From Mercurialis annua (Eukaryota; Streptophyta; Magnoliopsida; Malpighiales; Euphorbiaceae), in NCBI RefSeq assembly GCF_937616625.2, contig NC_065571.1, positions 13,394,501-13,458,500 on the forward strand: 64,000 bases of DNA. Reading direction: 5' to 3'. The stretch's first letter is position 1. Every line of letters begins with the position of its first letter. The notes under the pieces are model-generated. The model was given only the letters and a program-made list of their open reading frames with translations, did not search any database and was not told where the DNA came from. The position numbers and the translations under genes were made by a program. Shown piece after piece: positions 7,669 through 56,913 of this stretch.

Positions 7669-7710
7669 GTATTTAATAAAAATATAATAAAAAATATAAA
7701 ATTAAATTTT

Positions 7711-8281: not shown

Positions 8282-8525
8282 TTAAATTTTCATATATTAA
8301 TAAGAATATTAATAATATTTTTTAAATTGTGCGATAATAGAAAACGAACAATTATTTTAAAATCGAAATAATATTTGAACTTTAGTTATATGCTTTCTTT
8401 GCAATTCTAACAAGTTAAGTGCTCCTGGCAATATAATTAAGTAAGAAGCATTACTACTGCATGCATTACCAAATTTTTATTTTATAGCAAATAAATAACA
8501 ACAAGACTTTTGTATCTCTGGAATA

Positions 8526-8891
8526 GGGGTAATTGATTCTAGGGGTTACTGTATTTTTCAAGAATTGCAAAATGGTGACCGAACTTCAAAAAGTAACAAA
8601 TTGATTACTAAACTTTTAAATATGTGATTTTGGAAGGTTTTTTAGTGTTTTACGGTCAAATTATACAAACGTAGTAATCAAATTTTGATTATTTATAACA
8701 AATAATATCTTATATTTCATATATACACACAATCAACAAAAAATCGACTTGAAATAATTTTCTTCGGTAACCAAAAATCCTTCTATCTTAACATAACCAA
8801 ATAGTATAGTAACTAAAATGTTACGTTTTGAAGTTCGGTCACCATTTTGCAACTTTTTAAAAGTACAGTGACCTCCAAAATCAATTACCCC
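8526..8891. mobile_element. Inverted-repeat MITE (GGGGTAATTGATT ends)
   Basis: Both ends read GGGGTAATTGATT inward, and the arms continue through the inverted phrases AATGGTGACCGAACTTC and GAAGTTCGGTCACCATT. TGGAATA occurs directly on both sides (8519-8525 and 8892-8898), a 7-bp duplication, or 8 bp (CTGGAATA) if one terminal C is shared. No open frame of note. hAT-like is the best guess from duplication length. Confidence 0.8.
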
Positions 8892-8898
8892 TGGAATA

Positions 8899-9306
8899 GA
8901 TATCTCAACTTTCAGCTATATTTTGTCATAAAATATTGTGAAGAAGAAAATAGTCTTGCTATTGCCTTTTTGACTTGCATGGTTGCTCACCAATTTGTTT
9001 TACTTGTATTGTTCAGGTAATTATTCTGAGAGTCACTGTATTTTTTTTAAAGTTTCAAAATGGTCACCAAACTAATTTTCATTTTAAAATGGTCACCAAG
9101 TTTATCGTTTATGAACTTTCGGCAGTTCCTATAATGAATCCCGGCGATTTTATCCTACGAGGTTCGCCGGACGCTGAGTCACACCCACCTTTTTTTTCCT
9201 TGTCATCATTTTCTTTCCTAATTTTTTCAACATTTTCTAATAAATACATAAAATTAAAAAAATATCTAATAAATACTAATAATTCAAAAAAAATCAGAAA
9301 AAATTA
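8899..9306. other. AT-rich spacer with a fragment related to the 8526 MITE
   Basis: Around 9015-9100 the phrases GTCACTGTATTTTTTTTAA and CAAAATGGTCACCAAAC resemble the arms of the preceding MITE, suggesting a degenerate relative. The open frame across 8975-9325 is low-complexity and not credible as a gene. Confidence 0.5.
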
Positions 9307-9597
9307 CTCTCTCTGTCCCATTTAAGAAGGGACATATCCCATTTTTATTTGTCCCACTTAAGAAGGTCTTTTTTTAAATTCAAACTTAAAAAGGTCATAT
9401 CGTGTTTTTTGTGCCAATTTATATGAATTTTCTTTTTTTACCCCCTTTTCTCTTTCCATAATTAATGACTACTAATCTATACACAAAATATAACACTATC
9501 ATAAATAGAATAAAATAAAAAAAACACTATAGTAATTATTGCTTTCTTAATATATGTGAAAAAGTTATTTGTCCCTTTTTAAACGAGATGGAGGGAG
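9307..9597. mobile_element. Stowaway-like MITE (TA target site)
   Basis: The 291-bp element begins CTCTCTCTGTCCCATTTAAG and ends with the inverse of CTCCCTCCATCTCGTTTAAA. It is flanked by TA on each side (9305-9306 and 9598-9599). CTCCCTCCGT-type ends with a TA duplication are typical of Stowaway (Tc1/mariner-derived) MITEs. No coding potential. Confidence 0.8.
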
Positions 9598-9618
9598 TAT
9601 ATTTTTTAATTAATCAAA

Positions 9619-9747
9619 TCCGGACGAAGTGTTCTTCTTCTGGGTTTGAATCAAGAGGAAGAACATTTGTTTGGCTTCAAACCGGACGAAGTGTTTTTCG
9701 TTTGGGTTCAACCAAAACGAAGAACATTTTGTTTGGGTTCAATCCCA
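9619..9747. repeat. Two-copy tandem repeat, ~64-bp unit
   Basis: Two adjacent units each start CCGGACGAAGTGTT and contain GAAGAACATTTTGTTTGG or a near match. They differ by several substitutions. No function apparent. Confidence 0.65.
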
Positions 9748-10818
9748 TACACGGTGTTGACGTGACAGTTATTCATTGGTGCAATTTGCTGAGGTGTAAG
9801 TCATTTTTAACCAATCAATGACTCACACGTTAGCACCGTGTATGAATTTGGAAAAAAATGAATGTTGGTGTATTATTATGAAAAGTTTTAAAAACGTGAT
9901 TAAAATGAGAAAATGTGTAATGTTGGTGAATTTTTATGACTAAATCCAATTAAAAATTTAATGGAATTTTTTTATATTGAGATAATGAAAAAATAAACTA
10001 CGTTGTATAGTTTTTTTTTTAAAAAAAGTTTTGGATTAAGTGAATCAGATTTTTATTCTTATTTTCCTTCTATACTAAGATATGTGTTTCCTTGTAAACA
10101 AAATGTCTCATTCTTTAATAGGTAAGGAAATCGTTTTTGATGTTTAGAAAAGGAAATCCTATTCAAGGATTATTTTCCAATTAAAATTGTATCCGGACAC
10201 AAATTTATATTTAGTTATATGTTCATGCTTTAAATCATTTCATATAAGGACAACATGAAAAAGTAATTAATGTATTGCAGATTGTGTTACCATATCAGCT
10301 ACTCTGTTTAATTATGTAGTTGAGAGCCGTTCATGATATCTAATAAAACTATAAAAAAAAAAAAAACTACTTCTTTTTATATTTACCATTAAGAATTATA
10401 GTGTGAAAACTTAAATTCTAAACTTTCATAAAGTCCCATAAAGTAAAATACCAATAGGAACACAATCTGCAATACATTAATTACTTATAATTATTGATTT
10501 AATTTTTTTATAAATAATATGTATATTAAAAAGCACAAGTATCAAAAGATTTTTTCAAATTTTTTGTATAAAAAGCAGTACACATAAGGTGACACACTAA
10601 AAATTACGACTAAGAGAAAAGCTTCGACAATTAGGATTCTCAAAAAACCAAATCCGAATAAAAAAAATCACTAAGAGATATCATGTGAGAAAAATCCCTA
10701 TTATTGATTTTATTTTAACCATATAATTCTAAAAGATTATAATAATAATAGCATATCATGTGAGATACCAATACAAATACAAAAATGATATTGTTCTAAA
10801 CTGTCACCAGTATTAGCC
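9748..10818. other. Non-coding spacer with a 28-bp perfect inverted repeat
   Basis: No gene seen. Positions 10261-10288 and 10459-10486 are perfect inverted copies of a 28-bp arm (start AAGTAATTAATGTATTGCAG) around a ~170-bp AT-rich centre, a likely MITE remnant without a recognisable target duplication. The rest leads up to the ATL gene at 10819. Confidence 0.6.
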
Positions 10819-11298
10819 ATGATTATTCTAATATGCATGGCACTCATTTGCATTATTCTTGCATCGATTGTTGCCCTAACCATTAGAATAGCTTACAATT
10901 GCATTTCTTGGGTTATTTTTGGGACCCATAATCTTGATCTTGAACAAGGTTATTTAAGAACATCAAATCAGCAAAGATGGCAACTCAATTTATGGTCAGA
11001 TGAAAATGAAAATTTTGACAGTCTCCATCACTGGACTGTGGAGGAAAGCAGAAGAAAAGCAAATTGGCGACGACAACGACATTCTATTGAAGATTTGATG
11101 CCGAAAGTAAGATACGACGACGATGAAATGGAAATTTATAAGTCTAATGGTTGTGTTGTTTGCTTGAATGATTATATGGAGAATGAATCATGTAGAATTC
11201 TTCCTTTTTGTAAACATATGTTTCATTCACATTGTATTGATCACTGGTTTAACTGTAATCTAACTTGTCCGACTTGTCGTCAGTGTATTTTCGTTTGA
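10819..11298 (+). CDS. ATL-type RING-H2 finger E3 ubiquitin ligase (159 aa)
   Basis: Predicted membrane-anchored E3 ubiquitin ligase. Residues 1-35 form a hydrophobic anchor starting MIILICMALICIILASIVAL. A basic stretch (about 78-88) follows, then a C-terminal RING-H2 finger. Ligands are C112, C115, C131, H133, H136, C139, C150 and C153, with spacing C-x2-C-x15-C-x-H-x2-H-x2-C-x10-C-x2-C and the ATL tryptophan W143 after the sixth ligand. The family's GLD motif region is degenerate here (IEDLMPKVRY). The gene is intronless, as most ATL genes are. It is shorter than most ATLs and has almost no tail beyond the RING. Two paralogues lie at 35,622 and 43,318 on the same strand. ATL proteins pass ubiquitin from an E2 to substrates; the substrate here is unknown. 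Confidence 0.9.
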   Translation: MIILICMALICIILASIVALTIRIAYNCISWVIFGTHNLDLEQGYLRTSNQQRWQLNLWSDENENFDSLHHWTVEESRRKANWRRQRHSIEDLMPKVRYDDDEMEIYKSNGCVVCLNDYMENESCRILPFCKHMFHSHCIDHWFNCNLTCPTCRQCIFV

Positions 11299-12751
11299 AG
11301 ATCACTACAAACGAAGTGATTTTTGGCAACGCCTTATTACACCGACAATTAAAATCGTTAAAAAAATATATCTTTTGTTATGGCTCTTTTATTATCGTTA
11401 GAAATATAATTATTTCACAACTCATTAAGTTGCAACAATTTAAATATTTTATAATATTTTGCCGGGACTGATAAAATTATTCTAAAAAAAGAAGTTTTTC
11501 AACGATTTGATTTGTCGTTTAGAAATATAAATATTTCACAATGATAAATAATTTAGTTAAAAAAGGAAAAAGAAATTAAATTCCACATGAAAAAAATGTG
11601 AAGTTAACACGGTGCAATCTCATCATAAAGAAATATATTTTTTACTTCAACTTTGATATATTCCTTTAGAAAGTAAACAATAATAATTCGAACAATATTA
11701 AAAATTAGAAATTATAAAAAGCATTAAAAAAATAAAAATATATTACATATCAAAATAAAATATTTCTTTTTCCCTCTACAATTTTGACAACTTTGTCAAA
11801 TAAACCTCTAAACAATAGACTGTATGATCTGTCAATTTTACAACTTTGCAAAACTAATCCAAACCAAATTCAATTTATGAAATTTCTTGAACCATCAAGT
11901 AAAACCACGTGACCAATCTATATCGGACTAGATATATTTTGAATTCATAAAATTGACAAACCAAATTGTCCAAATTTTGTTATAGCAATATGTTTGATAA
12001 AATAGTAAAACTTATGAATAGAAACATTATTTTGTTTCAAAATAATAATTACTGATGTAATTGTAGAAACTTCTTTTTTGGACAGCCGTATGACACTGAA
12101 GCGTCCAATAATAGTTGTTGAAGACATTCAAGGAGCAAATTTACATGTAGCGGTAAAATTAAAGGATTGAATCATAGTTGTTACAAATAACCCATCAACA
12201 TTTAAAGGAATTGTGGATATAAGTATGGAAAATAAAACTAATTTCAAAACTTTTAAAGTTGTAGGTCAATCTGTCGAATTGAAAAAAGAATATGTAAAAC
12301 TAGAAATTTAGGACTCCTAAAACCTTCCTTGACACTTTGAAAAACCAAAATGACACTTTTATTATTTTTTTATATCATATTTATTTTAATCCAAAAATTA
12401 ACCTAAATTAATTAATAAATTAAGATTTAATTGAACCGAAAATCACCAGTTTTTGCGAATTTTTAGTATTTAATAATATTTTTTTTCTTGACCAACATAA
12501 CTTAGCCTAACTATAAATACAATTGTGTCTCCTTTTCTAAGAGAGATTGATATAAACAAACACAAGCTAAATTACTGAGATTGGCAGCCCCTGATAAGCC
12601 CTATAAGTTGATCATTTCATTGATCAATATTCAATCTAATAGGAGACTGACAGCTATTGGAAGATTGAATAGTGAATTCTTCGTACGGCCTATTAGAAAA
12701 TTTGCCAAGACAGAACAGTACTTTTGAAAACTCAATCTATTATAAAATTAA
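11299..12751. other. AT-rich intergenic region, no gene seen
   Basis: AT-rich sequence with runs of A and T and scattered stop codons in all frames. The short open frame at 11945-12127 (minus) has no recognisable features. Around 12430-12500 the phrase AAAATCACCAGTTTTTGCG resembles one arm of the MITE family at 13897 and 14362 and may be a solo fragment. Confidence 0.55.
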
Positions 12752-13136
12752 GGCTTAATTACTTAAAAACCACCCAGTTTGAACTTTTTTTTTCATTTAT
12801 ATCCTGACCTAAGAAAAAAAATCATTTATATCCTGATGTATGTATTTATGTTTCACCTCTACCTCGAGGCACTAAATTAACCTCTTTTCATTTAGAAAAA
12901 AGTTTAAAATAGTTCTTCATTTTTAATCTAAACTAATTAGAATTTAATTAGAAATGAATTTTTCTCTAAATGAAGGACTATTTTAAATTTTTTTCTAAAT
13001 GAAAAGAGGTTAATTTAATACTTCAGAGTAGAGGTGAAACATAAACACATACGTCAGGGTATAAATGAATTTTTTCCTAGGTCATGGTATAAACGAAAAA
13101 AAAGTTCAAGGTGGGTGGTTTTTAAGTAATTAAGCC
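12752..13136. mobile_element. Mutator-type MITE, 9-bp TSD (same family as 7711)
   Basis: Ends GGCTTAATTACTTAAAAAC and its inverse. It is flanked by a perfect 9-bp duplication TAAAATTAA (12743-12751 and 13137-13145). Internal phrases on TTTATACCCTGACC and GTTTCACCTCTACC match the 7711 element, but this one is 385 bp instead of 571 bp, so the centre differs. No coding sequence. Confidence 0.88.
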
Positions 13137-35621: not shown

Positions 35622-36206
35622 TTGCAAAAGAATGTTAAAATTCAACAATTTGTACTTACACACACAAAAAAAATGATGATTCATCCATTTTTCTCATTTA
35701 TAGTATCAAAGAATTTCTTCCATCCCAGTGTTCTTCTTCTAACTGGTTCCATTATTATCATTGTTTTTTGTGTAACAATGCTCTTTATTCTCGCCACATC
35801 TACGATTTTTCTCGCTTTCTATTTGACGTTTAAACGTATCATTCAACCGATATTTATAAGTCATACCCTTGACCGTGATCTCGAAATGTTTTATGGATCG
35901 AGATTTAGTTTCCAGGAAGACTTAGAATCAATGGGAGAAATATTTAACGAATATCCGTGCGTTGTGAAGGATAAAAAAGCACATACGCAATCGATCGACA
36001 AGCTGTTCCCGTCTATAAAATTTGACGAGAATGAAATGAGATCGAAGTATGAAGATTGTTCAATTTGCTTGGAAGATTACAAGAATGGAGAAGCATGTAG
36101 AATTTTTCCATTATGCAATCACATATTTCATTTGAAATGTATAGATATTTGGTTGGAAAACAACCTAACATGTCCAATTTGTCGTAAAACTATTTTAGAT
36201 GTATAG
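35622..36206 (+). CDS. ATL-type RING-H2 finger E3 ubiquitin ligase (194 aa, or 177 aa from M18)
   Basis: Membrane-anchored RING-H2 protein. One long hydrophobic region (about 36-69, LLLTGSIIIIVFCVTMLFIL and following) anchors it. RING ligands are C146, C149, C165, H167, H170, C173, C184 and C187, with the ATL spacing x2-x15-x1-x2-x2-x10-x2 and W177. The GLD-motif region is degenerate (SIDKLFPSIKF). The methionine at residue 18 (35673) sits nearer the hydrophobic segment and is an alternative start; the first 17 residues may be untranslated. The gene is intronless. It is closest in the window to the gene at 43,318, sharing the post-membrane phrase FKRIIQPIFIS versus [11 protein letters not shown]. 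Confidence 0.9.
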   Translation: MQKNVKIQQFVLTHTKKMMIHPFFSFIVSKNFFHPSVLLLTGSIIIIVFCVTMLFILATSTIFLAFYLTFKRIIQPIFISHTLDRDLEMFYGSRFSFQEDLESMGEIFNEYPCVVKDKKAHTQSIDKLFPSIKFDENEMRSKYEDCSICLEDYKNGEACRIFPLCNHIFHLKCIDIWLENNLTCPICRKTILDV

Positions 36207-43317: not shown

Positions 43318-43821
43318 ATGATTTCTCTGATCTTTACATTCTTATTTTCAAATACATTAATTTTTCATCCAAATATTTTCATTTTCATTAGTGTCATAAG
43401 CATCATTTTATTTTGTATGATCGTATTAGCATTTTCATTTGCTATGTTAATAGTTTTCTTTGCTCTTTATATTACATTCAGACGTATCGTCCAGCCTCTG
43501 ATTCTGTCCCCTAATAGATTCTTCATTGAACACGCCATTGATTCGTTCGATTTACTTAGCGAATTCCTATGTTTGATTGAAGAACGGAAATTAAAAAATC
43601 GATGTATCGGAAAAGTGTTGCCATCCGTGAAGTATAAGGATTGTGATTGGAAATTAAAATATGACGATTGCGCAATTTGCTTGGAAGATTACAATGATGG
43701 AGAATCATGCAGAATTTTACCAATGTGCAGACATGTTTTTCATTTGAATTGCATAGATCATTGGTTAAAAAACAGCCTAACATGCCCAGTTTGTCGTCAA
43801 TCTATAACCTTAGATTTATGA
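43318..43821 (+). CDS. ATL-type RING-H2 finger E3 ubiquitin ligase (167 aa)
   Basis: Hydrophobic from residue 3 to about 54, long enough for one extended or two closely spaced membrane segments ([20 protein letters not shown] and following). A juxtamembrane [11 protein letters not shown] follows. RING-H2 ligands are C118, C121, C137, H139, H142, C145, C156 and C159 with W149, in exact ATL spacing. The GLD-motif region is degenerate ([11 protein letters not shown]). Intronless; almost no sequence follows the RING. It shares RING residues with the 35,622 gene ([19 protein letters not shown] versus YEDCSICLEDYKNGEACRI), so the two are recent paralogues. Confidence 0.92.
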
Positions 43822-44801: not shown

Positions 44802-44892
44802 TTTATTTTATAAGAGTTCTTTAATTAGAAATAGAACTACTGTAAATAAATTGCTAGTGAGAATTAGCAGAGATTAATATTCATTTTCAAAC

Positions 44893-45371
44893 TGTTTACA
44901 CCGGCCCAAATAATTGTTGGATAGGAGCTTCATGTGGGCTTACAAGGGATTCAGGCCCAACGAAAAGTCTTTTAATTATTGCTTTTTCTTCTTATTAGGA
45001 GTTTGTAACTCATTAGGAGTATTTTATCTTTTAGAATTTTAGTCCTAATTGAATTAGGAGTCTTAGTTATGAGGAGCTATAAATAGCTCAGAGCTTCATT
45101 ATTTTTGTATCAACAAATCAATCAATCAAAAACCAAGCCCAGTGCTTTTTATCCCGCAATCTCCGGATTGTTTTAATTTAGGAGTAGTTTTCGGTATTAA
45201 TCTCGCCTGAGTCCGTGACTCCCAGATTATTACTTTTTAGATCACGTGGTTAAGTGTTTTTAACCAAACAAGCCCTGTGAATATCTGCATAGGTTCGTTA
45301 AAGTATCAAACCTCAAACCGATCCCGATTATAAATTCAAAGATTCGAGTCCGGAATATTTCCAGGCGAACA
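44893..45371 (+). repeat. 5' LTR of Tat copy 2
   Basis: Starts TGTTTACACCGG and ends CCAGGCGAACA. A TATA box is visible in GAGCTATAAATAGCTC (about 45075-45090), placing transcription start some 30 bases later. Four substitutions separate it from the 3' LTR. Confidence 0.95.
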
Positions 45372-45376
45372 TCTTT

Positions 45377-45395
45377 TGGCGACTCCACTGGGGAC
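45377..45395 (+). other. Primer-binding site of Tat copy 2
   Basis: TGGCGACTCCACTGGGGAC, five bases after the LTR. It begins with the TGG that pairs with a tRNA 3' CCA. The gag start codon follows only six bases later, an unusually short leader. The priming tRNA was not determined. Confidence 0.82.
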
Positions 45396-45401
45396 CAGTT
45401 T

Positions 45402-48400
45402 ATGGTTAGCACAAAAACGGACTTTAAGGACGATTCCAGGCACGCTCGGTCCATACGCCGACAACAACGGAAGGAAGGTGACATAGTAGACGAATCCGAT
45501 TCGGATAGATCAGAAACCATGGCCAAGGACAAACAGGTGAACCAATCAAGCAAGGTGCCGAATACAACGGACACCGAGGGGAGCTTACCTAAGGACAAGG
45601 TCGACGACGCGACCGATGACATGATAGACTACTCGCGCCAGCTTCCTCCCTCTCGCCCTTCTCTATCACAGGCTGACTTCTCGGCCATGAGGGGCGAAAT
45701 AGCGCAAGAGAACAAGCAAATGTTCGACGGTGCTATGCATCAGATGTCCGAAGTAATGAGGAACATCATGGCCGATCAAACGTCGGTCCAGAGGCAGATC
45801 CAAGGGAACTTAGATGGCCTCAATAAGGCAATGGAAAACCTAGGGCGATTATTTTCTGGGCAATCCGCGGCCGATCAAGGGTACAGAAGGGCCGAACAGA
45901 ACCAAACACCAAGCCGCTTTGGTCAACCAGGTGGTTCGGCCGAACAACAACCCAACAAGATGGGGTATACATATGGTTCCGTTAAGCTCTTAACAAGGAA
46001 CGAGGCCGAGTTCTCAGGAAGGGCCGATCACCCGGGAGCCAGCTCGTCCAACCCACAAGGCGAGGCTAGACCACAAGGGGGACCTACTGGAGCCAACACC
46101 CAGGAGCCCAACACGGGCGAACGATCGTACTCCGAGGGAGGCGATCCAAGCATATACAATCAAGGGCAACTCGTGGACATGCTAGAAAGGCTCGGGGTGG
46201 ATCTGCGACCTATGCCTCGCCCATCGTACATGAAACCGTATCCAGACTGGATCGACAAGTTATATCCGTTCCCAAGGGGGTATAAAGTGCCAGAGTTTAG
46301 TTTGTTTTCGGGCGAGGAGAAGCGCCAATCGACGGTTGAACATGTCGCCCGGTTTTCAGCTCAGTGCGGCGAAGCAGCCGCTCATGATTTCTGGAAGCTC
46401 CGGCTTTTCGCCAGCTCCTTGACAAAAATGGCGTTTACATGGTACTCTAGGTTGTCGCCCAATTCGGTGGACACATGGAAGGACCTCGAAATCCTCTTCC
46501 ATGAAGAATTTTACAGGGCACCACCTGATGTCACCCTAGCTGACCTCGCCCGAATCTCACAGCTACCGAGTGAGTCGGCAGAGAAGTATATCGGCCGATT
46601 TAGAAATCTCAGGACTAGGTGCTCCACCAAAATGTCAGAGGCTGATTGCGTACCTATGGTGGTGAGAGGGATGAGTTTCGCCATGAGGGAACACTTCGAG
46701 GGCCACAGGTTTCGTGACTTGTTCGAGCTAACGAACAGGGTGACGAGCTACGAAAGACTCCTCCAGGAAAAAGAACAGAGGAGAGGCGCATCTAAAGGGA
46801 CCTATTACAAAGACCAGCTTGACGTGGCCGTGGTGTCCGATAGCGAGGATAGTGGTTCCGAGGATGAAGTCAACATGGCCGAATTTTTGGGAACGAAACC
46901 CCTGGAATGTTCGGCCTTGCGAAAGCCTGGCTTTGTTAAAAGGAATAAGACCGCGGTGGTACAAAAAGAGTATTCATTCGACCTGACTAAAGCCGACGAC
47001 ATATTCGATGCCCTGTTGAAGGATGGGCAGATCGCCCTAAGCGAAGGACATACGATTCCACCGTCGGAAGAGCTAGTCGGTAAGGATTATTGCAAGTATC
47101 ATAACTCCTGGAGGCACAGCACGAACAATTGCGTGAACTTCAGAAACGTGGTTCAGAAGGCGATTAACGAAGGGAAACTTCTGTTCCCAACAAAGAAAGA
47201 GGCCGATGCCAAATACGTGGCTATTAACACAGTTCGGCCTCACTTTGATAGCTACCTAGGGCAAGGGCAGATACAAAGTAAGTGGAATCCAAGAAGACCC
47301 AAGCCGAGAGTAGAGACCGACGGTTCAAAGTGGCGAGGAGAAAAAGGGCAACCTCAACAACAGAAGAGGAAGCGATATAACTCGCCTACAGCAGATATGA
47401 CTTGCCCATCATGCAGTACGTGTTTCAAAGTCAAGGGAAGCGAGAACACGAGGAAGCATCCCAAGACCTTTAAACCGAGATCGCCCACAGAACAGTGGCA
47501 GAGGCATGAGCCACAACGGAGGCCTGCCACTAATGTATTCAAGAGGATATTTCGACCAACGGAGGAGACCCCTCGTATGACGAAAACCCAGAAGAGGCGA
47601 ATGCAAAGGCTGCGACAAGAGTCGCGGGCGAATCACGGGGCAGAATCGGCTCTCAGAGAGCAGCACGGAAATAGGCCAGTAACCGAGAGACTGGGGGCAA
47701 GGAACCAGGCCGATGCGGACGCCAAATCACCTGATAGGCGAAATGCCAAGGTAAGGAAGGTTTGGATGCCGAAGAGCGAAAAACAAGCGGCCGATGTGTC
47801 CGTAACGACAGTGGTTCACAAGGATGACGAAGATTCCAGCAACCGACCGTCCTACAAGGACGTACTGGTGTCGCACCACGGTGGCCAGCTTAAAGCGAGA
47901 TTGCCCAAAAACCGCGAGGTCATCGTTTCGCACAAGAAAGGCATGTTGAAAGCCTGGGTCCCGGTGGTAAGGGATGAATACGGAGTAAAAGTGGTCACGC
48001 TCCCTAACTCCTACAGAAGTAAACCGGGGCAAAAGGCAACGTTGGAAGGCGATGTAATCATACCAGAAGGAGATAGCGCCGACAATACCGCGGTAGTATC
48101 TCTTAGCAAACCTCCAACAAGGATGACTAGGCATATTCGGCCGCTGTATATCAAGGCCGATTTGAATGGGGTATCGATTAACAGAGTCCTCATCGATAAC
48201 GGGGCTGGCGTCAACATACTACCAGCAAAGATGCTCAAAAAACTGGGCATAACGCGGGATCAGCTGGACCCGACCGACGTTTACATGACTGACTTCGCAG
48301 GGGGCGAGACGCCGGCCGAGGGGTACATCACTCTCAGAATCAAGGTAGGGCGAGTGGAAACCGAAGAAGGGTTTTTCGTGGTCAACGCCCGGAGCAACTA

Positions 48401-48704
48401 CAACATTTTACTCGGCCGCGATTGGATACACTCTAACATGTGTATACCATCGACCATGCATCAAATGCTCTTTATATGGCGAGATGATGGCGAGGCAGAA
48501 GTTGTTCAGGGCGACCCCAATCCCTTCGGCGAGGACCACAATGTGCTTGAAGCACGGTTATACGATGAGGAAGTGCGCAACATACAATCTCTCAGTTCAA
48601 AGGGAGAGACGAACGTCCCTCGCCTGCTTGTCAACACAGATCGGCCCGTATCAGTGACCCTTGGGGGCAAAGGCCGATCCACCATCCTCAGAGATCCAAA
48701 ATGA
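45402..48704 (+). CDS. gag-pro: Gag-protease polyprotein (1100 aa)
   Basis: Structural capsid protein and aspartic protease of the element. A charged, low-complexity N-terminal third precedes the Retrotrans_gag core (about 300-430, with W347-Y-S-R-L). A zinc-knuckle-like motif, C564-x2-H567-x4-H572-x4-C577, has histidine in place of the second cysteine. A separate CPSCSTC motif lies near 667-673. The retropepsin domain is about 905-1030 with D932-N-G as the active site in LIDNGAGVNILP; DNG instead of DTG/DSG is seen in related plant elements. No internal stop. The start follows the primer site directly. Its TGA stop overlaps the pol start as ATGA, so pol is in another frame (-1). Confidence 0.94.
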   Translation: MVSTKTDFKDDSRHARSIRRQQRKEGDIVDESDSDRSETMAKDKQVNQSSKVPNTTDTEGSLPKDKVDDATDDMIDYSRQLPPSRPSLSQADFSAMRGEIAQENKQMFDGAMHQMSEVMRNIMADQTSVQRQIQGNLDGLNKAMENLGRLFSGQSAADQGYRRAEQNQTPSRFGQPGGSAEQQPNKMGYTYGSVKLLTRNEAEFSGRADHPGASSSNPQGEARPQGGPTGANTQEPNTGERSYSEGGDPSIYNQGQLVDMLERLGVDLRPMPRPSYMKPYPDWIDKLYPFPRGYKVPEFSLFSGEEKRQSTVEHVARFSAQCGEAAAHDFWKLRLFASSLTKMAFTWYSRLSPNSVDTWKDLEILFHEEFYRAPPDVTLADLARISQLPSESAEKYIGRFRNLRTRCSTKMSEADCVPMVVRGMSFAMREHFEGHRFRDLFELTNRVTSYERLLQEKEQRRGASKGTYYKDQLDVAVVSDSEDSGSEDEVNMAEFLGTKPLECSALRKPGFVKRNKTAVVQKEYSFDLTKADDIFDALLKDGQIALSEGHTIPPSEELVGKDYCKYHNSWRHSTNNCVNFRNVVQKAINEGKLLFPTKKEADAKYVAINTVRPHFDSYLGQGQIQSKWNPRRPKPRVETDGSKWRGEKGQPQQQKRKRYNSPTADMTCPSCSTCFKVKGSENTRKHPKTFKPRSPTEQWQRHEPQRRPATNVFKRIFRPTEETPRMTKTQKRRMQRLRQESRANHGAESALREQHGNRPVTERLGARNQADADAKSPDRRNAKVRKVWMPKSEKQAADVSVTTVVHKDDEDSSNRPSYKDVLVSHHGGQLKARLPKNREVIVSHKKGMLKAWVPVVRDEYGVKVVTLPNSYRSKPGQKATLEGDVIIPEGDSADNTAVVSLSKPPTRMTRHIRPLYIKADLNGVSINRVLIDNGAGVNILPAKMLKKLGITRDQLDPTDVYMTDFAGGETPAEGYITLRIKVGRVETEEGFFVVNARSNYNILLGRDWIHSNMCIPSTMHQMLFIWRDDGEAEVVQGDPNPFGEDHNVLEARLYDEEVRNIQSLSSKGETNVPRLLVNTDRPVSVTLGGKGRSTILRDPK

Positions 48705-51133
48705 TAGCACGACATGAAGAATTGAGGGAGAAAATTAGACAGCTAACCTCGCTGTACGATGTTACATCGGCCGAATGCATATATGAGGATCAAGATCAAG
48801 ACCCAACAGGATCGTTGCGGATTGGGGACATAAGATTGGCAACCGGGAAGTTAGAAGATGACCCCGCCCAAGTACAGGACGATCTCCTCGAAATCAATCT
48901 GGGGACAGAGGAATCGCCTAAACCCATATACATCAACGCAGGACTGGACGAAGGATTCAGAGAGCAACTGATCGCCCTACTCATAGAGTTCCGCGACTGT
49001 TTTGCCTGGTCATACGAGGAAATGCCGGGCCTTGATCCTGATATCGCCGAACATAAGCTTCCATTAAAAAGTGGGTTTCGGCCATTTCGGCAACCTCCCC
49101 GGCGAATGTCCAGGGAAGTGGATACTCTCATACAAGATGAGATTAAGCGGCTGGAAGACGCCAAGTTCATTCAGGAGGCCCAATACACTGAATGGCTCTC
49201 TAACATCGTGCCAGTCATGAAGAAAAACGGGAAGCTACGAGTATGCGTGGACTTTCGGAATCTCAACTTGGCCACACCCAAAGATGAATACCTGATGCCT
49301 GTAGCCGATATGCTGATCGACAGGGCAGCTGGACACACGATACTCAGTTTCCTTGATGCACATTCCGGGTACAACCAAGTCCCAATCAACAAGGAAGACA
49401 TCTCCAAAACGGCTTTTAGATGCCCCGGGCCGATCGGAGCGTACGAATGGGTCGTGATGCCCTTTGGCTTGAAAAACGCAGGGGCAACATATCAGAGGGC
49501 GATGAACAAGATGTTCAGAGGCCTTGAATGCCTTGAGGTCTACATCGACGACGTTGTAATCAAGTCAAACACCGGCGAAGTTCATTTGGCCGATCTCCGG
49601 AAAGGTTTCGAGCGTATACGACGTAATGGGTTAAAAATGAATCCTCTGAAATGCGCGTTCGGCGTTTCGGCTGGAAACTTCTTGGGTTTCTTGGTTCACC
49701 AGCGGGGAGTAGAAATAGATAAGAACAAAGCCAAGGCGATTATCAATGCTGAACCACCCAAAACCAAGAAGCAGCTCCAGAGGCTCATCGGTCAAATCAA
49801 TTTTTTAAGAAGATTCATAGCAAACACAGCAGGCCGGCTTCGCAGCTGGAGTGTTTTGCTGAGGGGAAAAGAGACCGATGAGTGGATATGGACGGACGAG
49901 CAACAGAGGGTGTTTGACGATTTGAAAGGTTACTTGGCGAAACCTCCGGTCATGACCCCTCCAAAGCCGAATAAGCCGTTGTTGCTATACCTATCGGCTG
50001 CGCACGAATCCCTAGGATGTATGCTCGCCCAAGAGGACGATGGGATCGAGAGAGCAGTCTACTACTTAAGCCGAGGATTGACGGACACGGAGATTCGCTA
50101 TACCGACATAGAAAAAATGTGTCTATGCCTGTACTTCACATGCTGCAAGCTGCGATACTATATGTTGCCGGTCGTAGTGTATGTATTATCCCAGACCGAT
50201 ATCATTAAATATATCTTATCGAAGCCATACCTGAGGAATCAGATTGGAAAATGGGCGATTGCAATGTCCGAATTCACATTGGTGTACGTCCCCCAAAGAG
50301 CAGTAAAAGGACAAGTGTTGGCAGACTTCTTGGCTGATCACCCTGGTATTAACCGCAAGGAAGAGACACCTGAGCGAGTAGACATCACGTTCTTCGACAT
50401 CGCCGTGTGGAAGATGTGGTTCGACGGGTCCAGGACAAGCCAGGGGGCAGGCGCGGGAGTACACATCGTCACACCCTTGGGGGCATCCTACCAGCTATCA
50501 TTCAAACTCCAGTTCGAATGCACCAACAATCAAGCAGAATATGAGGCCCTCATATTCGGTTTTGAGATTTTAGCCGAGCTAGGGGCGAGGGCGATCAGTG
50601 TAAAAGGAGATTCTTTGCTAGTCATTAAACAAGTGACAGGAGAATTCAAATGCGAGTCCGAGCTGTTGGTAAGGTATTGCAACAAGGCGAAACACCTGCT
50701 CGAAGGCTTCCAAGAAACGAGAATAGAATACACGGAGAGGGCCGATAACGGCGTTGCAAACGACCTAGCTCAGCACGGTAGTGGGTACAAGGTAAACCGA
50801 GAGTTCGACGCCATAGAAAGGGAGACACCGAATCTCCACACCGGGGGCATCCCGATCAACGAAAAACAATACTCGGTTTACCAGCTGGACGTCACCCAAG
50901 ATTGGAGGGACGAGCTCCTGAAGTGGTTCGAGAACCCAGACGCCACAAATAGGAGGTTGAGGACTTTAGCCCTTAATTACGTGATCTTATCCGGCGAGTT
51001 ATATAAGAAGGGCTTTGAAGGGCTACTATTCAGATGCATCGGTCCGAAAGAGGCGATGCTTGCCATGGCCGAAGTACACGAAGGTAGCAGGCGCCCACCA
51101 GGCGGGCCCCAGAATGAGGTGGCTCATCCATAA
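48701..51133 (+). CDS. pol: Pol, first part: reverse transcriptase, RNase H, second RNase H (broken at the 3' end)
   Basis: RNA-dependent DNA polymerase and two RNase H domains. RT spans about 100-350 with FLDAHSGYNQ and catalytic Y281-I-D283-D284. The gypsy RNase H follows at about 425-530 (LYLSAAHESLGCMLAQ). A second RNase H, about 570-700, has D575 in WFDGSRTSQGAG, E613 in NNQAEYEA and the KGDSLLVIKQ acidic strand. This dual arrangement marks Tat elements. The start ATG overlaps the gag stop (ATGA), and copy 1 has the same overlap, which supports the start. A two-base deletion between 51084 and 51085, compared with copy 1, throws the last ~15 codons out of frame so that integrase is not fused. 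Confidence 0.93.
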   Translation: MIARHEELREKIRQLTSLYDVTSAECIYEDQDQDPTGSLRIGDIRLATGKLEDDPAQVQDDLLEINLGTEESPKPIYINAGLDEGFREQLIALLIEFRDCFAWSYEEMPGLDPDIAEHKLPLKSGFRPFRQPPRRMSREVDTLIQDEIKRLEDAKFIQEAQYTEWLSNIVPVMKKNGKLRVCVDFRNLNLATPKDEYLMPVADMLIDRAAGHTILSFLDAHSGYNQVPINKEDISKTAFRCPGPIGAYEWVVMPFGLKNAGATYQRAMNKMFRGLECLEVYIDDVVIKSNTGEVHLADLRKGFERIRRNGLKMNPLKCAFGVSAGNFLGFLVHQRGVEIDKNKAKAIINAEPPKTKKQLQRLIGQINFLRRFIANTAGRLRSWSVLLRGKETDEWIWTDEQQRVFDDLKGYLAKPPVMTPPKPNKPLLLYLSAAHESLGCMLAQEDDGIERAVYYLSRGLTDTEIRYTDIEKMCLCLYFTCCKLRYYMLPVVVYVLSQTDIIKYILSKPYLRNQIGKWAIAMSEFTLVYVPQRAVKGQVLADFLADHPGINRKEETPERVDITFFDIAVWKMWFDGSRTSQGAGAGVHIVTPLGASYQLSFKLQFECTNNQAEYEALIFGFEILAELGARAISVKGDSLLVIKQVTGEFKCESELLVRYCNKAKHLLEGFQETRIEYTERADNGVANDLAQHGSGYKVNREFDAIERETPNLHTGGIPINEKQYSVYQLDVTQDWRDELLKWFENPDATNRRLRTLALNYVILSGELYKKGFEGLLFRCIGPKEAMLAMAEVHEGSRRPPGGPQNEVAHP

Positions 51134-52184
51134 ATACGGCTTTTATTGGCCGAAAATGGAACAAGACTGCATAAGATATGCCAAAGGTTGCGAAGCCTGT
51201 CAGAAATTCGGCCCAATACAACACGTCCCGGCCGAAGACCTGCACTCCATTATCAAGCCTTGGCCATTCAGAGGATGGGCGGTCGACCTGATAGGGAAAG
51301 TATACCCCGGCTCGTCTGATGGTCATACTTTTGTGATTATCGCCACTTGTTACTTCACCAAGTGGGTCGAAGCTAAACCTTTGAAGTCGCCGACACAAGA
51401 AGCGGTGATCAAGTTCTTCAAAGAATACATCGTCCACCGACACGGCTTGCCCGAGTCCATAACCACAGATCAAGGGACGATGTTCACAGGAGGCGATATA
51501 AGTTGGTGGGCTTCCCAAATGAAGATAAAAATGTTACACTCAACACCATACTATGCCCAGGCCAACGGACAAGCCGAAGCCACGAACAAAGCTATCAAGC
51601 TCATAGTTCAAAAGATGATTGAAGAAAACCCAAGACAATGGCATGTGCTTTTATCAGAAGCTGTTTGGGCGAACAGAACCAGTCAGAAGTCAGCTACTGG
51701 GACTTCGCCGTTCAGATTGGTTTATGGCTATGATGCGATGTTGCCAATGGAGCTGACCGTCATGTCTACTCGCCGCAGATACCAGAGCGAGTTGTCCAAA
51801 GAAGACTACTTTGACAAAATGGTGATAGATTCTCTTGACCTCGACGAGGAACGTCTGACGGCGTTAGACCACTTAGAAGCCCAGAAAAGAAGGGTCGAGA
51901 GAGCTTACAACAAACGGGTAAAACGGAAAGTGTTTACGGTAGGCGACATAGTATGGAAAGCAGTCTTGCCTATCGGCCATAAAGACACTCGGCTTGGCAA
52001 ATGGAGCCCGAATTGGGAAGGCCCCTTTATTGTAGTTAACAAGTTAGAAGGCGGTGCTTACTTACTGGCGAACATTGACGGAGAGGAACACGACAGGGCG
52101 ATCAATGGACAGTTCCTAAAAAAGTATGTCCCTAGTTGCTGGGATGGCATCGACCGACGGCTGTTTGGAGCCGACGACGAATAG
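51015..52184 (+). CDS. pol: Pol, second part: integrase, out of frame with RT
   Basis: Integrase that inserts the cDNA into host DNA. The first ~24 codons of this frame (up to about 51086) overlap the RT frame and are not the natural sequence; real integrase coding begins where the frame resumes after the two-base deletion. The HHCC zinc finger ends in CIRYAKGCEACQKFG. The catalytic core has D91 (AVDLIGK), D152 (TTDQG) and E188 (GQAEATNK); D152 and E188 are separated by 35 residues as expected. The C-terminal part (KVFTVGDIVWKAV, GPFIVVNKLEGGAYLL) resembles the GPY/F region. No chromodomain is present, as expected for Tat. No internal stop. Without suppression of the shift it lacks a proper start. 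Confidence 0.92.
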   Translation: MKGYYSDASVRKRRCLPWPKYTKVAGAHQAGPRMRWLIHKYGFYWPKMEQDCIRYAKGCEACQKFGPIQHVPAEDLHSIIKPWPFRGWAVDLIGKVYPGSSDGHTFVIIATCYFTKWVEAKPLKSPTQEAVIKFFKEYIVHRHGLPESITTDQGTMFTGGDISWWASQMKIKMLHSTPYYAQANGQAEATNKAIKLIVQKMIEENPRQWHVLLSEAVWANRTSQKSATGTSPFRLVYGYDAMLPMELTVMSTRRRYQSELSKEDYFDKMVIDSLDLDEERLTALDHLEAQKRRVERAYNKRVKRKVFTVGDIVWKAVLPIGHKDTRLGKWSPNWEGPFIVVNKLEGGAYLLANIDGEEHDRAINGQFLKKYVPSCWDGIDRRLFGADDE

Positions 52185-52229
52185 ACGCGGCCGCGAAACT
52201 TGGCCAAACACCGAGTGAAGATAAATGCT

Positions 52230-52305
52230 CGTTCTGTTTCTCCGGCAACGACGAACAGACGTGTCTACGTTCTGTTTCTCCGGCAACGACGAACAGACGG
52301 GTCTA
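52230..52305 (+). repeat. Two-copy 38-bp tandem repeat after integrase
   Basis: Two adjacent units starting CGTTCTGTTTCTCCGGCAAC, differing by one base, in the untranslated region after integrase. Confidence 0.9.
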
Positions 52306-52570
52306 CAAGTTATCGCCGAAATGCCCCGAAGTCCTATTACCGGCGACATCTTTATATGTTGTTTTAGCCGATTATGCAAGGCAGTAGCGCATACTTCGGC
52401 GGGTTGCTGTTTTAGTTGAGTTTTTCAACGGGCACTCCGTTTTCTCAGCATTTATATGTAAAAAAGCTAATCATGAAATGAATTATTGCATATCGGACCA
52501 GTTATGGACCGATCGTATAATAACAAAGCATATAAAACAACAAAACAGTTCGAAACCAATTCATAACAAT

Positions 52571-52745
52571 TCACTTCAATATTCGGCCACCTGGCCGATT
52601 TGCATAAAAACAAATTCAGAAAAACAAAGATACGGCCCCTTGGCCGATCAATAAAACAATCCACTTCAATATTCGGCCACCTGGCCGATTTGCATAATAA
52701 CAAATTCAGAAAAACAAAGATACGGCCCCTTGGCCGATCAATAAA
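52571..52745. repeat. Two-copy 90-bp tandem repeat with GGCC hairpins
   Basis: Units start at 52571 and 52661 with a 90-base period and few differences. Each holds two short palindromes, CGGCCACCTGGCCG and CGGCCCCTTGGCCG, plus GATCAATAAA at its end. It lies just beyond the stop codon of the antisense gene, between two convergent coding regions. A role as an RNA structure or 3'-end signal is conceivable but only inferred. Confidence 0.88.
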
Positions 52746-52782
52746 GTATCAATATACGTGGATTACAAGAAATAATAAATGT

Positions 52783-53988
52783 TCAAAAATGGGAAAAACA
52801 AAGCCCCAATTCACTCCTGATGGTGCTAAATTCCTTGCGAGCCCCATCCGCCTTCGGCGCAAGCTTTGAAATACTCCCTTTCAGAAGGCTCCGGCATTTT
52901 TTGACATCGATGCCTTCGACCATGTCTTTATCCATGCAGCTTTCAAGGTCTTTGATACCTTGCTCCTCGGCATCTAACTCAACCTTCAGAGAGGCGATCT
53001 TGTCCTGCAACTCTTTGGCCCGGGAGCGCCGATTCGTCAAGGTTGTAACGGCCATCTTCACGTTCGTCTTCAAGGTTTCAAGCTTTTCTTTGGCTTCGGT
53101 TTCCTGGGCGAGAAGCTTTTCATATTCGGCTTGTACCGCCAGCGAATCATTGTATATCTTCTGAAAAGCTTCAAGAGATGCCGATAACCTCGTCACAGCA
53201 TCCCGGGCCTCCTCGCCGAGAACCTCTGAAGGGGCGTCAGATAAAGCCGCGGCAGCTTTCTTCAGCCTAGCAATCTCTTCGGGCGATTTGAATAAGGAAA
53301 CGCCGAGGGTTTTCATCCGGGACATAGCATCGAAATGGGCACCCCAATCTTCGGAAAGATTGCTCGCCTCCAGAATAATCGACCCATCTTCTGGGGCGAT
53401 CGGCAGCTCGTCGTCACTATCCGAGTTCAGAAAGGCAGCCGCCTTCGCCGTCATATCGTCCTCCAGGGAAGGATCGGCGATCGGAATCTGAAACGAGTGA
53501 CCACAATAAAATATCAACTGCCAGGAAATGTAAAGATTATGAGTAAAAGCAGAAAAGTACCTTGGTAGCCGATTTCTTGGCCAGATTCTCGGACAGATTC
53601 AGCAACTCCGGGGCAAGAGGCGACAGCTTTTTAGGAACCTCCATGCTCGCCAAAATCTGGGCTGCAGTTGGAGTGCGCTGGGAGTTAGTCTCTGCCGAAG
53701 TCTGCATGCACTCTGCTTCTTCGACATGGAAACCCTCGGCAGTCTTCGTCTCGCCCTTGGAAGACGATTGAGCGCTGGCGGATGGAGTCGCCTGTTTGGA
53801 AGAATCTGAATTCTTGGGCGAAGGATCAAACAGGCGAGATCCTTTTGGCTCTACCTTCTGTTTCTTTGCCTTGGCTTCTTTAAGGGGTTTTCGTTTCGCT
53901 GGGCGTTTGGCTCTCGACCGCTTAGCTTCAGGCTCGTCGTCTCCGTCAGTGTCGAACTTGTCATCCTTGTGCCATTTCGGCACACCAA
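52783..53988 (-). CDS. Exons 2-3 of the antisense PMD gene: basic linker and coiled coil
   Basis: C-terminal half of the antisense gene. Exon 2 (53988-53561) encodes a Lys/Arg-rich segment with nuclear-signal character (KRSRAKRPAKRKPLKEAKAK) and a Ser/Thr/Pro-rich linker. Exon 3 (53487-52783, 234 codons plus stop) starts IPIADPSLEDD, is acidic at first and then forms a long helical, heptad-like region (EEIARLKKAAAAL, AVQAEYEKLLAQETEAKEKL, RAKELQDKIASLKVELDAEE). Both splice junctions join at codon boundaries or keep frame. No cysteine- or metal-binding motif is seen. A coiled coil suggests self-association or partner binding. PMD followed by a basic linker and a coiled coil is an arrangement I associate with transposon-borne PMD proteins, from memory and unchecked. 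Confidence 0.72.
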
Positions 53989-56012
53989 CTGCAAAATTCA
54001 CCCAGGTTGTAAGTACAATGAAAAAACGGCCTTAAAGAGAAAAGAATGGATTACCTGGGATTCTGGTATAACCGACTCGGACCAATTCGGCTATAGCCTC
54101 GGCATCAGACGGACATCTGATACCGGTGTAAGAAACTCCCTCATTATTAATGATCGGCTCGGATTTTTTGGTTTTCTTTTTTACGTTTTTTAATGGGAAT
54201 GTTCGTAGACATGTTGCATTTCGGAACCGGTGGGCTCTTATATTTAAACTTAGGACGAATATGAGCTAGAAAAAATTCGTATGGGTATTGATGCTGGTAT
54301 TTTTCTTCCCAAAGTTTTATCATTTTGTTCTCAAAATTACGTTTAGCTATTCGCCTATGTTTTTGCATTAAAAGGTTCATGCCTGGACGATCTAAGGGAT
54401 CATACTTAAACTTGTAAAAACGTTCGAATCTAGCTATTTCGTAGAGGTGAAAAGTAATACCTTCATACTGGGGACGTTTCGGGGCCTGCAAAAGAAAGAG
54501 ATCGGCATGAGTAGGAGTTCTTGACAAAGGAGGTAAAGAAAAATCGTGAAGAGAAAGGATTTCTTTCGGCGAAAGATCAAAGAAGGACTCTGTGACCGAA
54601 GCCCACCAGCTCTCATATTCAGGGGTAGTTTTAGGTTTGGGTGAAGGACGAGACAGGTCTGGAATGGGGGGAAGATAAGCCTTATTAAGACGAATTATAA
54701 ACTGGAGGTCGGCATAGTTTTCTAAGGAAGCTTTATGGGTCCCGCGGTTATTGACGGAGATCAATAAAGGACAGGGAATGCCTTGGTTAAAGCCGAATTG
54801 GCGAGATACATAGTTGGGGCAGTATAGTTCGATGCTACTCTGCTTATACTCCAGACCAGCGATCAAATTTCTGGATTTCAGGACACTTCCCCAGTACTGG
54901 CCACCTAGCCGAGTCGTTGGATGGGTTCGGACTTCTTCGGTATCCTCGCCATCCCAGCCGATCAGAAGCCATGATGGTGGGTACTTCATGGATAAGATTG
55001 GGCAGAACAACTCTGATGCCCTCACCGAGTTGTTAAAAACTTCAAGAACGTCCAAGACGTGGCCGAGGCGAGTGCCAGAAGACATGAGAGAAAACCCATT
55101 TAGCTCGGCTTTGATGGAAGGCACACTCTCAAATAGCTCTGGAAAATACATTGACAACCAGAGTTGGACGACCCATAACGGACCTCCAGGGCATTTGAAT
55201 ATCCTTTTTTCGGCATGTGGGGCGATGTCATTGAGAGAACGGTATAGATGGGCGAGCAGGAATTCACCCAGGTTACATCTTCGACCTTCGGCCCAAGCTG
55301 CGGCGAGGACGAAACTGTCTTGAGTTACCCTGAACGAAGCCGGGCATAGGATAAACTTGGAGATGAAGAAAGCCAAGAAAGCTACGTGTTCTCGATCGTC
55401 GGGAACGGTATCTGTGTCGCCCTGGAAGATGTTGATATAAGGGCCGTAACTTCGTTGGGGTTTGGATAACTTGAAGTTTGGTTCATCAGCTGAGAGGTTG
55501 GGCGAGATCCTTTCGCCAACTATTGGGATATTTAGCATCACTGCTAAATCCAGAAGTGTGATGGTCATGGCGCCGAATTTAAAGCAGAAGCAGTTCACTG
55601 CGCTGGACCAAAAAAGAGATGCACCCATTATGTAGTGCTTGGCTATTGGGCGGCTCGCCTTACAGAGACTAATCATGTCAGATATTCCGACCTCAGTCCA
55701 TATGTGTCCAAAGTGGGGTTTCAGTCTGTTTACCCAGGCTTGGTATCCTTTGTGTTCGGCTGGCCAGTTTCGGAAAGTTGTGTTGAACCAAATGGACGAC
55801 TGATGTGGGAGAGAGAAGCGTGGTGGGACTTCGTCATGATAGGGAGTAGCGATATCGCACAGGTGGCTCGGCGAGGTAAGAATAGGACCCACGCAGAGTT
55901 GGTTGTCCCCTGCGTCTACAATTACCTGGAATTCGGTATTCGGGGCAGCAGCACGGGTATCGGCTATCTTGTCAACAACTTGAGTGGCGATAGTTTCTTG
56001 AGGAGCAGCCAT
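52783..56012 (-). CDS. Antisense spliced gene in the retrotransposon: plant mobile domain (PMD) protein
   Basis: Three coding exons on the minus strand: 56012-54055, 53988-53561 and 53487-52783. Introns are 54054-53989 (66 nt) and 53560-53488 (73 nt), both GT-AG, and frames join at each. A 5'-UTR intron (56099-56018) ends six bases before the ATG, in TTTCCTGCAG. Exon 1 encodes a plant mobile domain at roughly residues 70-470, recognised by NWPAEHKGYQAWVNRL, IPIVGERISP, WAEGRRCNLGEFLLAHLYRS and CPNYVSRQFGFNQGIP. Host PMD proteins of the MAIN/MAIL type act in the nucleus in transposon silencing and genome stability. Near 54170-54190 an A-rich tract carries an apparent one-base frame change: the main frame stops at 54147-54149 while a second frame continues open to the splice donor, so this copy is probably broken there. 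Confidence 0.8.
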
Positions 56013-56017
56013 GATAA

Positions 56018-56165
56018 CTGCAGGAAATGAGAATACCTTAGTTAGGCGATCTCTAAAAAGGGGCGAGTCAGAATAAAAAGACAAAGAGCGAACACTTACC
56101 GGAGGAGACAGTAAATTGTTTGAACTTGCTGAAGAGAGAGAAAAGCTTGATAATTGCAGAGAGAG
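56018..56165 (-). promoter_or_regulatory. 5' UTR, leader intron and pyrimidine patch of the antisense gene
   Basis: On the minus strand CTACTCTCTCTGCA and CTTTTCTCTCTCTTCAGC (about 56128-56165) form a pyrimidine-rich patch of the kind found near plant transcription starts. A donor CTCCGGTAAGTG (GT at 56099-56098) and an acceptor TTTCCTGCAG (AG at 56019-56018) bound an 82-nt leader intron. The promoter itself must lie between here and the 3' LTR; no convincing TATA box was fixed. Confidence 0.6.
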
Positions 56166-56415
56166 TAGGTAAGTGAAGAAATGAAGTGATATTTTTCTTA
56201 AGAAACAAAATTAGAGGTATCCGAGAGGTCGTGGGGACAAGATGTGACATCGTGGGTGACAGCTGGCGATGACGTGGCATGAAGGGGGTACCGAGACGTC
56301 GATAGATGCGCACCCCTTTAGAATTTCTCTGCAATGATTTGGGCCTCAGGGACGGGCCTGGAAGCGTCAAAGGAAAGATTAAGTGAAGAACAAGCCCAAA
56401 AATAAATGTTTCAAG

Positions 56416-56429
56416 CTTGTTGGGGGCAT
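56416..56429 (+). other. Polypurine tract region of Tat copy 2
   Basis: CTTGTTGGGGGCAT lies immediately before the 3' LTR. Its purine run TTGGGGGCA is short but correctly placed to prime plus-strand synthesis. Confidence 0.6.
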
Positions 56430-56908
56430 TGTTTACACCGGCCCAAATAATTGTTGGATAGGAGCTTCATGTGGGCTTACAAGGGATTCAGGCCCAACGA
56501 AAAGTCTTTTAATTATTGCTTTTTCTTCTTATTAGGAGTTTGTAACTCATTAGGAGTATTTTATCTTTTAGAATTTTAGTCCTAATTGAATTAGGAGTCT
56601 TAGTTATGAGGAGCTATAAATAGCTCAGAACTTCATTATTTTTGTATCAACAAATCAATCAATCAAAAACTAAGCCCAGTGCTTTTTATCCCGCAATCTC
56701 CGGATTGTTTTAATTTAGGAGTAGTTTTCGGTATTAATCTCGCCTGAGTCCGTGACTCCCAGATTATTACTTTTTAGATCACGTGGTTAAGTGTTTTTAA
56801 CCAAACAAGCCCTGTGAATATCTGCATAGGTTCGTTAAATTATCAAAACTCAAACCGATCCCGATTATAAATTCAAAGATTCGAGTCCGGAATATTTCCA
56901 GGCGAACA
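56430..56908 (+). repeat. 3' LTR of Tat copy 2
   Basis: 479 bp, same length as the 5' LTR. Differences counted by eye: G to A in the CTCAGAACTTC region, C to T in AAAACTAAGCC, and two changes in GTTAAATTATCAAAACTC. Followed directly by the target duplication CAAAC. Confidence 0.95.
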
Positions 56909-56913
56909 CAAAC

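Follow-up and report, generated by a model that had tools for sequence, protein, structure and literature searches.

The window studied here is a stretch of 64,000 nucleotides of the Mercurialis annua genome (contig C2:13394501-13458500 of assembly G000, 451 Mb). It contains, at 44893-56908, a long terminal repeat (LTR) retrotransposon of the Tat type of Ty3/gypsy, and on the minus strand between the integrase and the 3' LTR of this element lies a gene with a leader intron, two coding introns and three coding exons. Our comparisons indicate that this is an accessory gene of the element, carried on the strand opposite to gag-pol; that its protein, as the spliced product, is under purifying selection about as strong as that on gag-pol; and that anciently diverged classes of the gene have been exchanged among element backbones. 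The element is young, as the initial annotation had held: 475 of 479 sites are identical between the 5' and 3' LTRs and four differ, and CAAAC at both element ends marks the target-site duplication. With substitution rates of 0.7-1.3e-8 per site per year, the four LTR differences would place the insertion a few hundred thousand years ago. The gag-protease, the reverse transcriptase (RT)-RNase H-archaeal RNase H and the integrase regions occupy three overlapping frames; in the RT frame, Pfam places RVT_1 at 217-374, RT_RNaseH at 467-569 and RVT_3 at 618-736, and integrase follows in the next frame. The Tat-type assignment made at the outset holds because this archaeal-type RNase H (RVT_3) lies between RNase H and integrase, a position typical of Ogre and Retand (PMC6317226; PMC numbers in this text cite excerpts of the papers).

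All three introns of the antisense gene carry GT and AG ends at the positions and on the strand first proposed for them (Table 1), and they are T-rich, with GC contents of 0.34-0.42. The Pfam profile of the plant mobile domain (PMD, PF10536) matches the exon 1 open reading frame (ORF) as predicted, at 103.2 bits against a curated cut-off of 34.9 (E 2.2e-29), with the best stretch spanning profile positions 1-190 of 347. A stop-free run of 687 codons was observed, whereas the longest in 1000 first-order Markov simulations was 241. The initial annotation also had the coding frames joining at both coding introns. This is correct from the tail of exon 1 onward, where the junctions with exon 2 and from exon 2 to exon 3 are in open frame, and the joined peptide RIP-VGVPKW across coding intron 1 occurs in an NCBI gene model, P0001. 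The frame that begins at the ATG and contains the PMD, however, stops at 54147 and misses exon 2, and a reading of exon 1 as open straight to 54055 is thereby ruled out.

The exon 1 protein was searched against its own genome, where 71 of 736 candidates were scored, all of them strong matches; a corresponding integrase search scored 116 hits of 5143 candidates. Among the 71 gene copies, 56 have an integrase match within 8 kb downstream on the opposite strand, one has such a match on the same strand, and 14 have none listed. Of the 30 best matches, which form the sample for the comparisons that follow, 28 have an LTR upstream of the gene, at a constant distance between 3' LTR and ATG, and integrase is antisense to the gene in all four pieces that were fetched. 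The gene thus recurs as part of the element.

The exon structure is shared by these family members, as the initial annotation had anticipated. GT-AG borders are kept in nearly all 30 copies (Table 1), the exceptions being L007 (GG), L020 (AA) and L025 (GC) at the leader intron, L013 at coding intron 1, where the gene is cut, and L013 and L016 (GA) at coding intron 2. In the 22 copies outside class A (one of three gene classes, defined below), identity to the focal copy is 0.91-1.00 at the splice columns and averages 0.52-0.65 in intron interiors, although some interior columns likewise reach a conservation of 0.95 or more (from 15 of 57 to 27 of 75). Spliced as found, 16 of the 30 copies read without a stop to a shared end and encode 1022-1031 amino acids; 15 of these 16 have both coding introns bounded by GT-AG. 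L013 was left out of the dN/dS, exon 3 and linker tables because its 3' part is another sequence: the gene is cut in intron 1 and continues into LTR-like and gag-like sequence, as if an element had inserted or the locus had been rearranged.

No copy shows clean loss of any intron, which fits the proposal that the introns are antisense to the genomic RNA and are not removed from it. In the RNA that is reverse transcribed they would read CT..AC and would escape splicing, and they would therefore persist through rounds of retrotransposition, as had been suggested from the window alone.

Ratios of nonsynonymous to synonymous differences per site (dN/dS) are far below 1. In class A (21 pairs) the pooled ratio is 0.067 in exon 1, 0.130 in exon 2 and 0.322 in exon 3 (exon 3 median 0.144); for the other classes (22 copies, 231 pairs) the values are 0.076, 0.171 and 0.215 (exon 3 median 0.123). 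Between the focal element and a second copy of its family in the window, described below, the corresponding ratios are 0.074 for gag-protease and 0.073 for RT-RNase H. In a protein-only check, none of 1000 neutral simulations gives mismatches as conservative as those to the proteins P0002 and P0003, while 5 of 1000 reach the conservativeness seen with P0001; no stops are found against P0002 and P0003 where 7.4 and 5.0 are expected, although gene models avoid stops. The PMD match, the shared exon structure and dN/dS had been named beforehand as points on which the reading could fall, and none of them refuted it.

Table 1. Features of the focal element and its antisense gene (window coordinates).
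Feature	Position	Strand	Evidence or remark
Target-site duplication CAAAC, 5' side	44888..44892	.	
5' LTR, 479 bp	44893..45371	+	475/479 identical to 3' LTR
Primer-binding-site-like stretch, begins TGG, 5 nt past 5' LTR	45377..45395	+	Sequence
gag-protease open frame, stop to stop	45264..48704	+	Retrotrans_gag 3.3e-14, gag-asp_proteas 3.9e-8
RT + RNase H + archaeal-type RNase H frame, overlapping the gag-protease frame	48569..51133	+	RVT_1 3.7e-28, RT_RNaseH 1.1e-16, RVT_3 6.2e-18
Integrase open frame	50985..52184	+	ORF list, Pfam
Two 90-bp tandem repeats with four CGGCYNNNNGGCCG palindromes (52584, 52633, 52674, 52723)	52565..52745	.	Immediately past the antisense gene, on its 3' side
Coding exon 3, long-helix C-terminus, stop codon included	52783..53487	-	
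Coding intron 2, GT-AG, 73 nt	53488..53560	-	GT-AG in 28/30 copies
Coding exon 2, basic linker	53561..53988	-	
Coding intron 1, GT-AG, 66 nt	53989..54054	-	GT-AG in 29/30 copies
Exon 1, ATG at 56012, PMD; frame broken near 3' end in this copy (first stop 54147)	54055..56017	-	
Leader intron, GT-AG, 82 nt	56018..56099	-	GT-AG in 27/30 copies
Leader exon, T-rich	56100..56165	-	5' end putative, from the initial annotation
3' LTR, 479 bp	56430..56908	+	LTR comparison
Target-site duplication CAAAC, 3' side	56909..56913	.	

Selection on the protein is as strong as that on gag-pol, so the protein should affect the element in some way. One could envision that the useful product is the antisense RNA, which would form double-stranded RNA with the genomic RNA and damp the element, a kind of self-limitation. 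Such a transcript would overlap the genomic RNA in its 3' part, and this option has been raised for other antisense ORFs (PMC7264820). In tea, plant mobile domain genes harbor 175 PHAS loci, and PMD genes can thus feed small-RNA pathways (PMC10673657). An RNA-only role would, however, need neither the low dN/dS of exon 1 (about 0.07) nor the kept frame, kept splice sites and conservative changes, and we consider it distinctly unlikely as the sole explanation. A role of the RNA and a role of the protein may be compatible.

The encoded protein offers some hints of what that effect could be. Exon 2 is a lysine/arginine (K/R)-rich linker, with a stretch of 10-11 K/R per 20 amino acids in all 29 copies tabulated. 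A structure model of exon 3, made for one sequence, is a single 96-residue helix (residues 92-187) with predicted local distance difference test (pLDDT) scores mostly of 83-96; Pfam at E up to 1 returns for exons 2-3 weak coiled-coil families and one sub-threshold match only. Past the 3' end of the gene, the four CGGCYNNNNGGCCG palindromes in the tandem repeats compare with 0.00 expected in window shuffles, and the pattern is found again next to copies from each of the three gene groups, at 12 of 64 loci in which little of this region is included. The conserved T-rich leader exon and the intron upstream of the ATG are the sole promoter-region feature seen.

We propose that the gene would be transcribed from its own promoter, or from an antisense promoter in the LTR, and then spliced, and that intact copies would encode a protein composed of the PMD, the K/R-rich linker and the long C-terminal helix. 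The basic linker could take this protein to the nucleus, where it would affect the element in trans, with the transcription or chromatin state of the element as the most likely target, either as an element-encoded counter to silencing or as a regulator. Taken as a whole, this account of a spliced antisense accessory gene that is selected for its protein, reassorted among elements and active as a nuclear factor on the element in trans seems to us reasonably probable.

Several observations weigh against it. The gene is known here from its DNA sequence. The window copy is itself damaged: the ATG and PMD frame ends about 90 nt short of the splice donor, the last 35 or so codons of exon 1 lie in another frame, and because this break separates the PMD from exons 2-3, the focal copy is unable to make the full protein. 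It is one of 14 copies among the 30 that are not open to the end, and intact copies are over-represented in a sample made of the best matches. The structure model of the PMD has a mean pLDDT of 33 and is too poor to read, no solved structure matches by sequence, and to our knowledge the function of the PMD is not established even in host proteins. Finally, DOWN (CATGCAGTTT), the single cis-motif named for the PMD pathway of the host, shows no enrichment in the window, with three matches at up to one mismatch where 5.05 are expected.

The same features of the protein could also serve the RNA or the particle of the element rather than chromatin, for example in nuclear export or in import of the integration complex. 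A basic stretch resembling a nuclear signal, together with a long helix, fits import or RNA binding equally well, and a role like that of retroviral accessory proteins has been proposed (PMC7264820). Exons 2-3 have no match to an RNA-binding domain in Pfam at E up to 1, and we hold this alternative, too, to be rather improbable; a nuclear factor acting on transcription or chromatin remains the reading that we favor.

The copies fall into class A (L001-L007), class B (at least 16 copies) and a third group (L017, L026, L028, L029 and L030). Exon 1, integrase and LTR were compared for L001, L002, L010, L019 and L028. Between classes, exon 1 differs by 0.70-0.76 synonymous differences per site (dS), which is saturated, and this divergence indicates that the gene is old in these elements. 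The age counts against the idea that the gene is a recently captured host passenger of the MAIN/MAIL type. Host PMD genes do exist and have a part in silencing transposons (PMC7156037, PMC9899485), but in a quick tree with long branches the PMDs carried by the elements cluster in a single starred group, well away from the 30 other PMD loci of this genome that were included, and a passenger would be expected to drift toward a dN/dS near 1, so that we regard a recent capture as very unlikely.

The same between-class pairs that are saturated in exon 1 have an integrase dS of only 0.32-0.50 and LTR distances of 0.015-0.074. The disagreement runs in both directions: L010 and L019 differ by a dS of 0.14 in exon 1 yet by 0.080 in the LTR, while L001 and L028 are 0.025 apart in the LTR yet saturated in exon 1. 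In a tree of 28 copies (L012 and L020, which have no LTR upstream, were left out), the LTR data reject class A, class B and the third group as clades, with p values of 6.0e-6, 3.3e-6 and 3.2e-4 in the approximately unbiased (AU) test. Saturated gene classes on similar LTRs and integrases, together with this rejection, argue that the gene has been reassorted among elements.

The borders of the exchanged segments can be followed in individual copies. As far as the integrase stop codon (52182-52184), L010, L019 and L028 are 92.3-92.7% identical to the focal element; beyond it, identity collapses. On the other side, identity to the focal copy drops between the 3' LTR and the leader exon. L005 combines a class-A exon 1 with a preceding stretch, from LTR to leader exon, that resembles class B (94% to L010). 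Within the gene, too, exon 3 has been swapped near intron 2 in L008 and L030. Exon 3 is 90% identical between L008 and L030, and these two are 57-61% identical to other copies (44% to L004, whose exon 3 is disturbed). Exons 1-2 of L008 are nevertheless of class B (95-97% to L010), and exon 1 of L030 belongs to the third group (93-94% to L017 and L028). The switch in L008 sits at or near intron 2; in L030, intron 1 and exon 2 match neither class well and differ from those of its exon 1 relatives. Such patterns would most simply be caused by template switching between co-packaged genomic RNAs, a process known in plant LTR elements (PMC12786077). That the conflict might instead reflect LTR and pol evolving far more slowly than the gene, or a mix-up of neighboring insertions, is hardly credible: the LTRs are short (479 bp) and their tree has little resolution, with 6 of 25 inner branches starred, but unequal rates cannot create ordering conflicts in both directions, the LTR data reject all three classes, the 3' LTR stands at a constant distance from the ATG, and identity breaks at the integrase stop codon.

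These results can be joined in a bolder form, in which a pool of anciently diverged, intron-containing antisense genes would be reassorted as cassettes, also exon by exon near introns, onto shared LTR-pol backbones; the PMD protein would be a self-directed nuclear factor that shields or regulates the element by way of the adjacent palindromic repeats, a retrotransposon counterpart of the anti-silencing VANC proteins of VANDAL transposons. Antisense orientation would allow the element to retain true introns, and at these joints exons could be exchanged. The part of this picture that concerns reassortment is largely borne out by the comparisons above; the self-directed factor and the introns as joints are conjectural, and as a whole we find it doubtful.

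The closest database protein to the gene is P0001, itself from Mercurialis annua. It is also the only relative of exons 2-3 in the protein database, among the best 7995 candidates scored; a profile search with A1 gave only the same five proteins and none further, and no relatives were confirmed in viral_contigs or genome_contigs. P0001 contains extra introns, which we do not adopt: the two stretches that it skips are open in the window copy, and we read them as artefacts of the model around broken sites. Copy L007 has a stop exactly at the first of the two; the second can be aligned with protein P0004. The genome itself holds at least 161 PMD matches, of which several groups are far from the element-borne one, for example a cluster near C2:9.26-9.54 Mb.

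The second copy of the family lies on the minus strand at 1-7660, where it is cut by the window edge, and is 86.7% identical to the focal element over gag-pol. About 640 bp (6709-7350) stand within its LTR, between two LTR-like parts. The overlap of the gag-protease and RT frames at 48569-48704 is present in both copies, which points to a trait of the family and not to damage; the change of frame between RNase H and integrase in the focal element is absent from the second copy. Elsewhere in the window, a 200-nt direct repeat (35994-36193 and 43606-43805) is 76% identical, and its second copy lies inside an ORF whose end resembles, by eye, a RING finger protein.

Antisense ORFs between pol and the 3' LTR (PMC11963269, PMC7264820) and PMDs in Ogre and other gypsy elements (PMC6317226, PMC9289625) are already known. 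In the open-licence PMC papers searched, we found no report of conserved introns in such an antisense gene, nor of gene classes reassorted relative to LTR or pol. Plant LTR elements are generally intron-free, with Ogre and EVADE named as exceptions (PMC12786077), and examination of spliced antisense transcripts has been called for (PMC7264820). A normally built, multi-intron gene that is antisense to the element genome, and is kept through repeated retrotransposition, shows how spliced accessory genes can be retained by a retroelement. That saturated gene classes occur on backbones with 92-98% likeness in LTR or integrase makes the role of plant retrotransposon antisense ORFs testable. The same result carries a caution, in that LTR or pol phylogenies do not describe the accessory genes of elements.

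How does this gene compare with known systems? HBZ, an accessory gene of the retroelement HTLV-1, is likewise antisense and spliced and has a nuclear product, although the protein is unrelated and the gene begins in the LTR. HBZ is mentioned in PMC11963269, which describes the closest counterparts in plants, the antisense additional ORFs of the Retand lineage (aORF-3R; Grande gene23, Retand ORF3/ORF4, RIRE2). These occupy the same place between pol and 3' LTR, on the same antisense strand. The element described here has an LTR of 479 bp, an internal region of 11058 bp and a pol-3' LTR region of 4245 bp, within the Retand-lineage ranges of 315-1194, 7380-12869 and 2933-6566 bp (PMC11963269). 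Grande gene23 is reported to be nuclear and transcribed from its own promoter (PMC7264820), and would be a precedent for both an antisense promoter and a nuclear protein. The domains differ, as 97% of aORF-3R clusters carry TRP28 (PF04195) where this gene has a PMD, and the main text of PMC11963269 names neither PMD nor intron for aORF-3R, in contrast to the three conserved introns here.

While the sizes of the element fit Retand, its PMD and split pol frames point to Ogre. The PMD is found in 57% of Ogre elements (PMC6317226) and ranks first in frequency among the atypical domains of plant gypsy consensuses (PMC9289625). Ogre also has gag-protease and RT-integrase in separate frames, but a sense intron separates them, whereas the gag-protease and RT frames overlap here. 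An antisense, intron-containing PMD gene is not described for PMD-bearing gypsy elements in the available portions of PMC6317226 and PMC9289625. The host proteins MAIN and MAIL1 share the Pfam PMD and take part in transposon silencing (PMC7156037, PMC9899485); the PMD of our gene differs in being element-borne and fused to a basic linker and a long helix.

VANC resembles the predicted protein in being an accessory protein of an element, with noncoding, motif-bearing tandem repeats beside its gene, and in that gene and target vary between related elements; VANC proteins bind the tandem noncoding repeats of their own elements (PMC10398659). VANDALs are DNA transposons and the VANC domain is unrelated, and on our side the likeness comes from sequence. 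The parallel through the palindromic repeats is a lead and no more.

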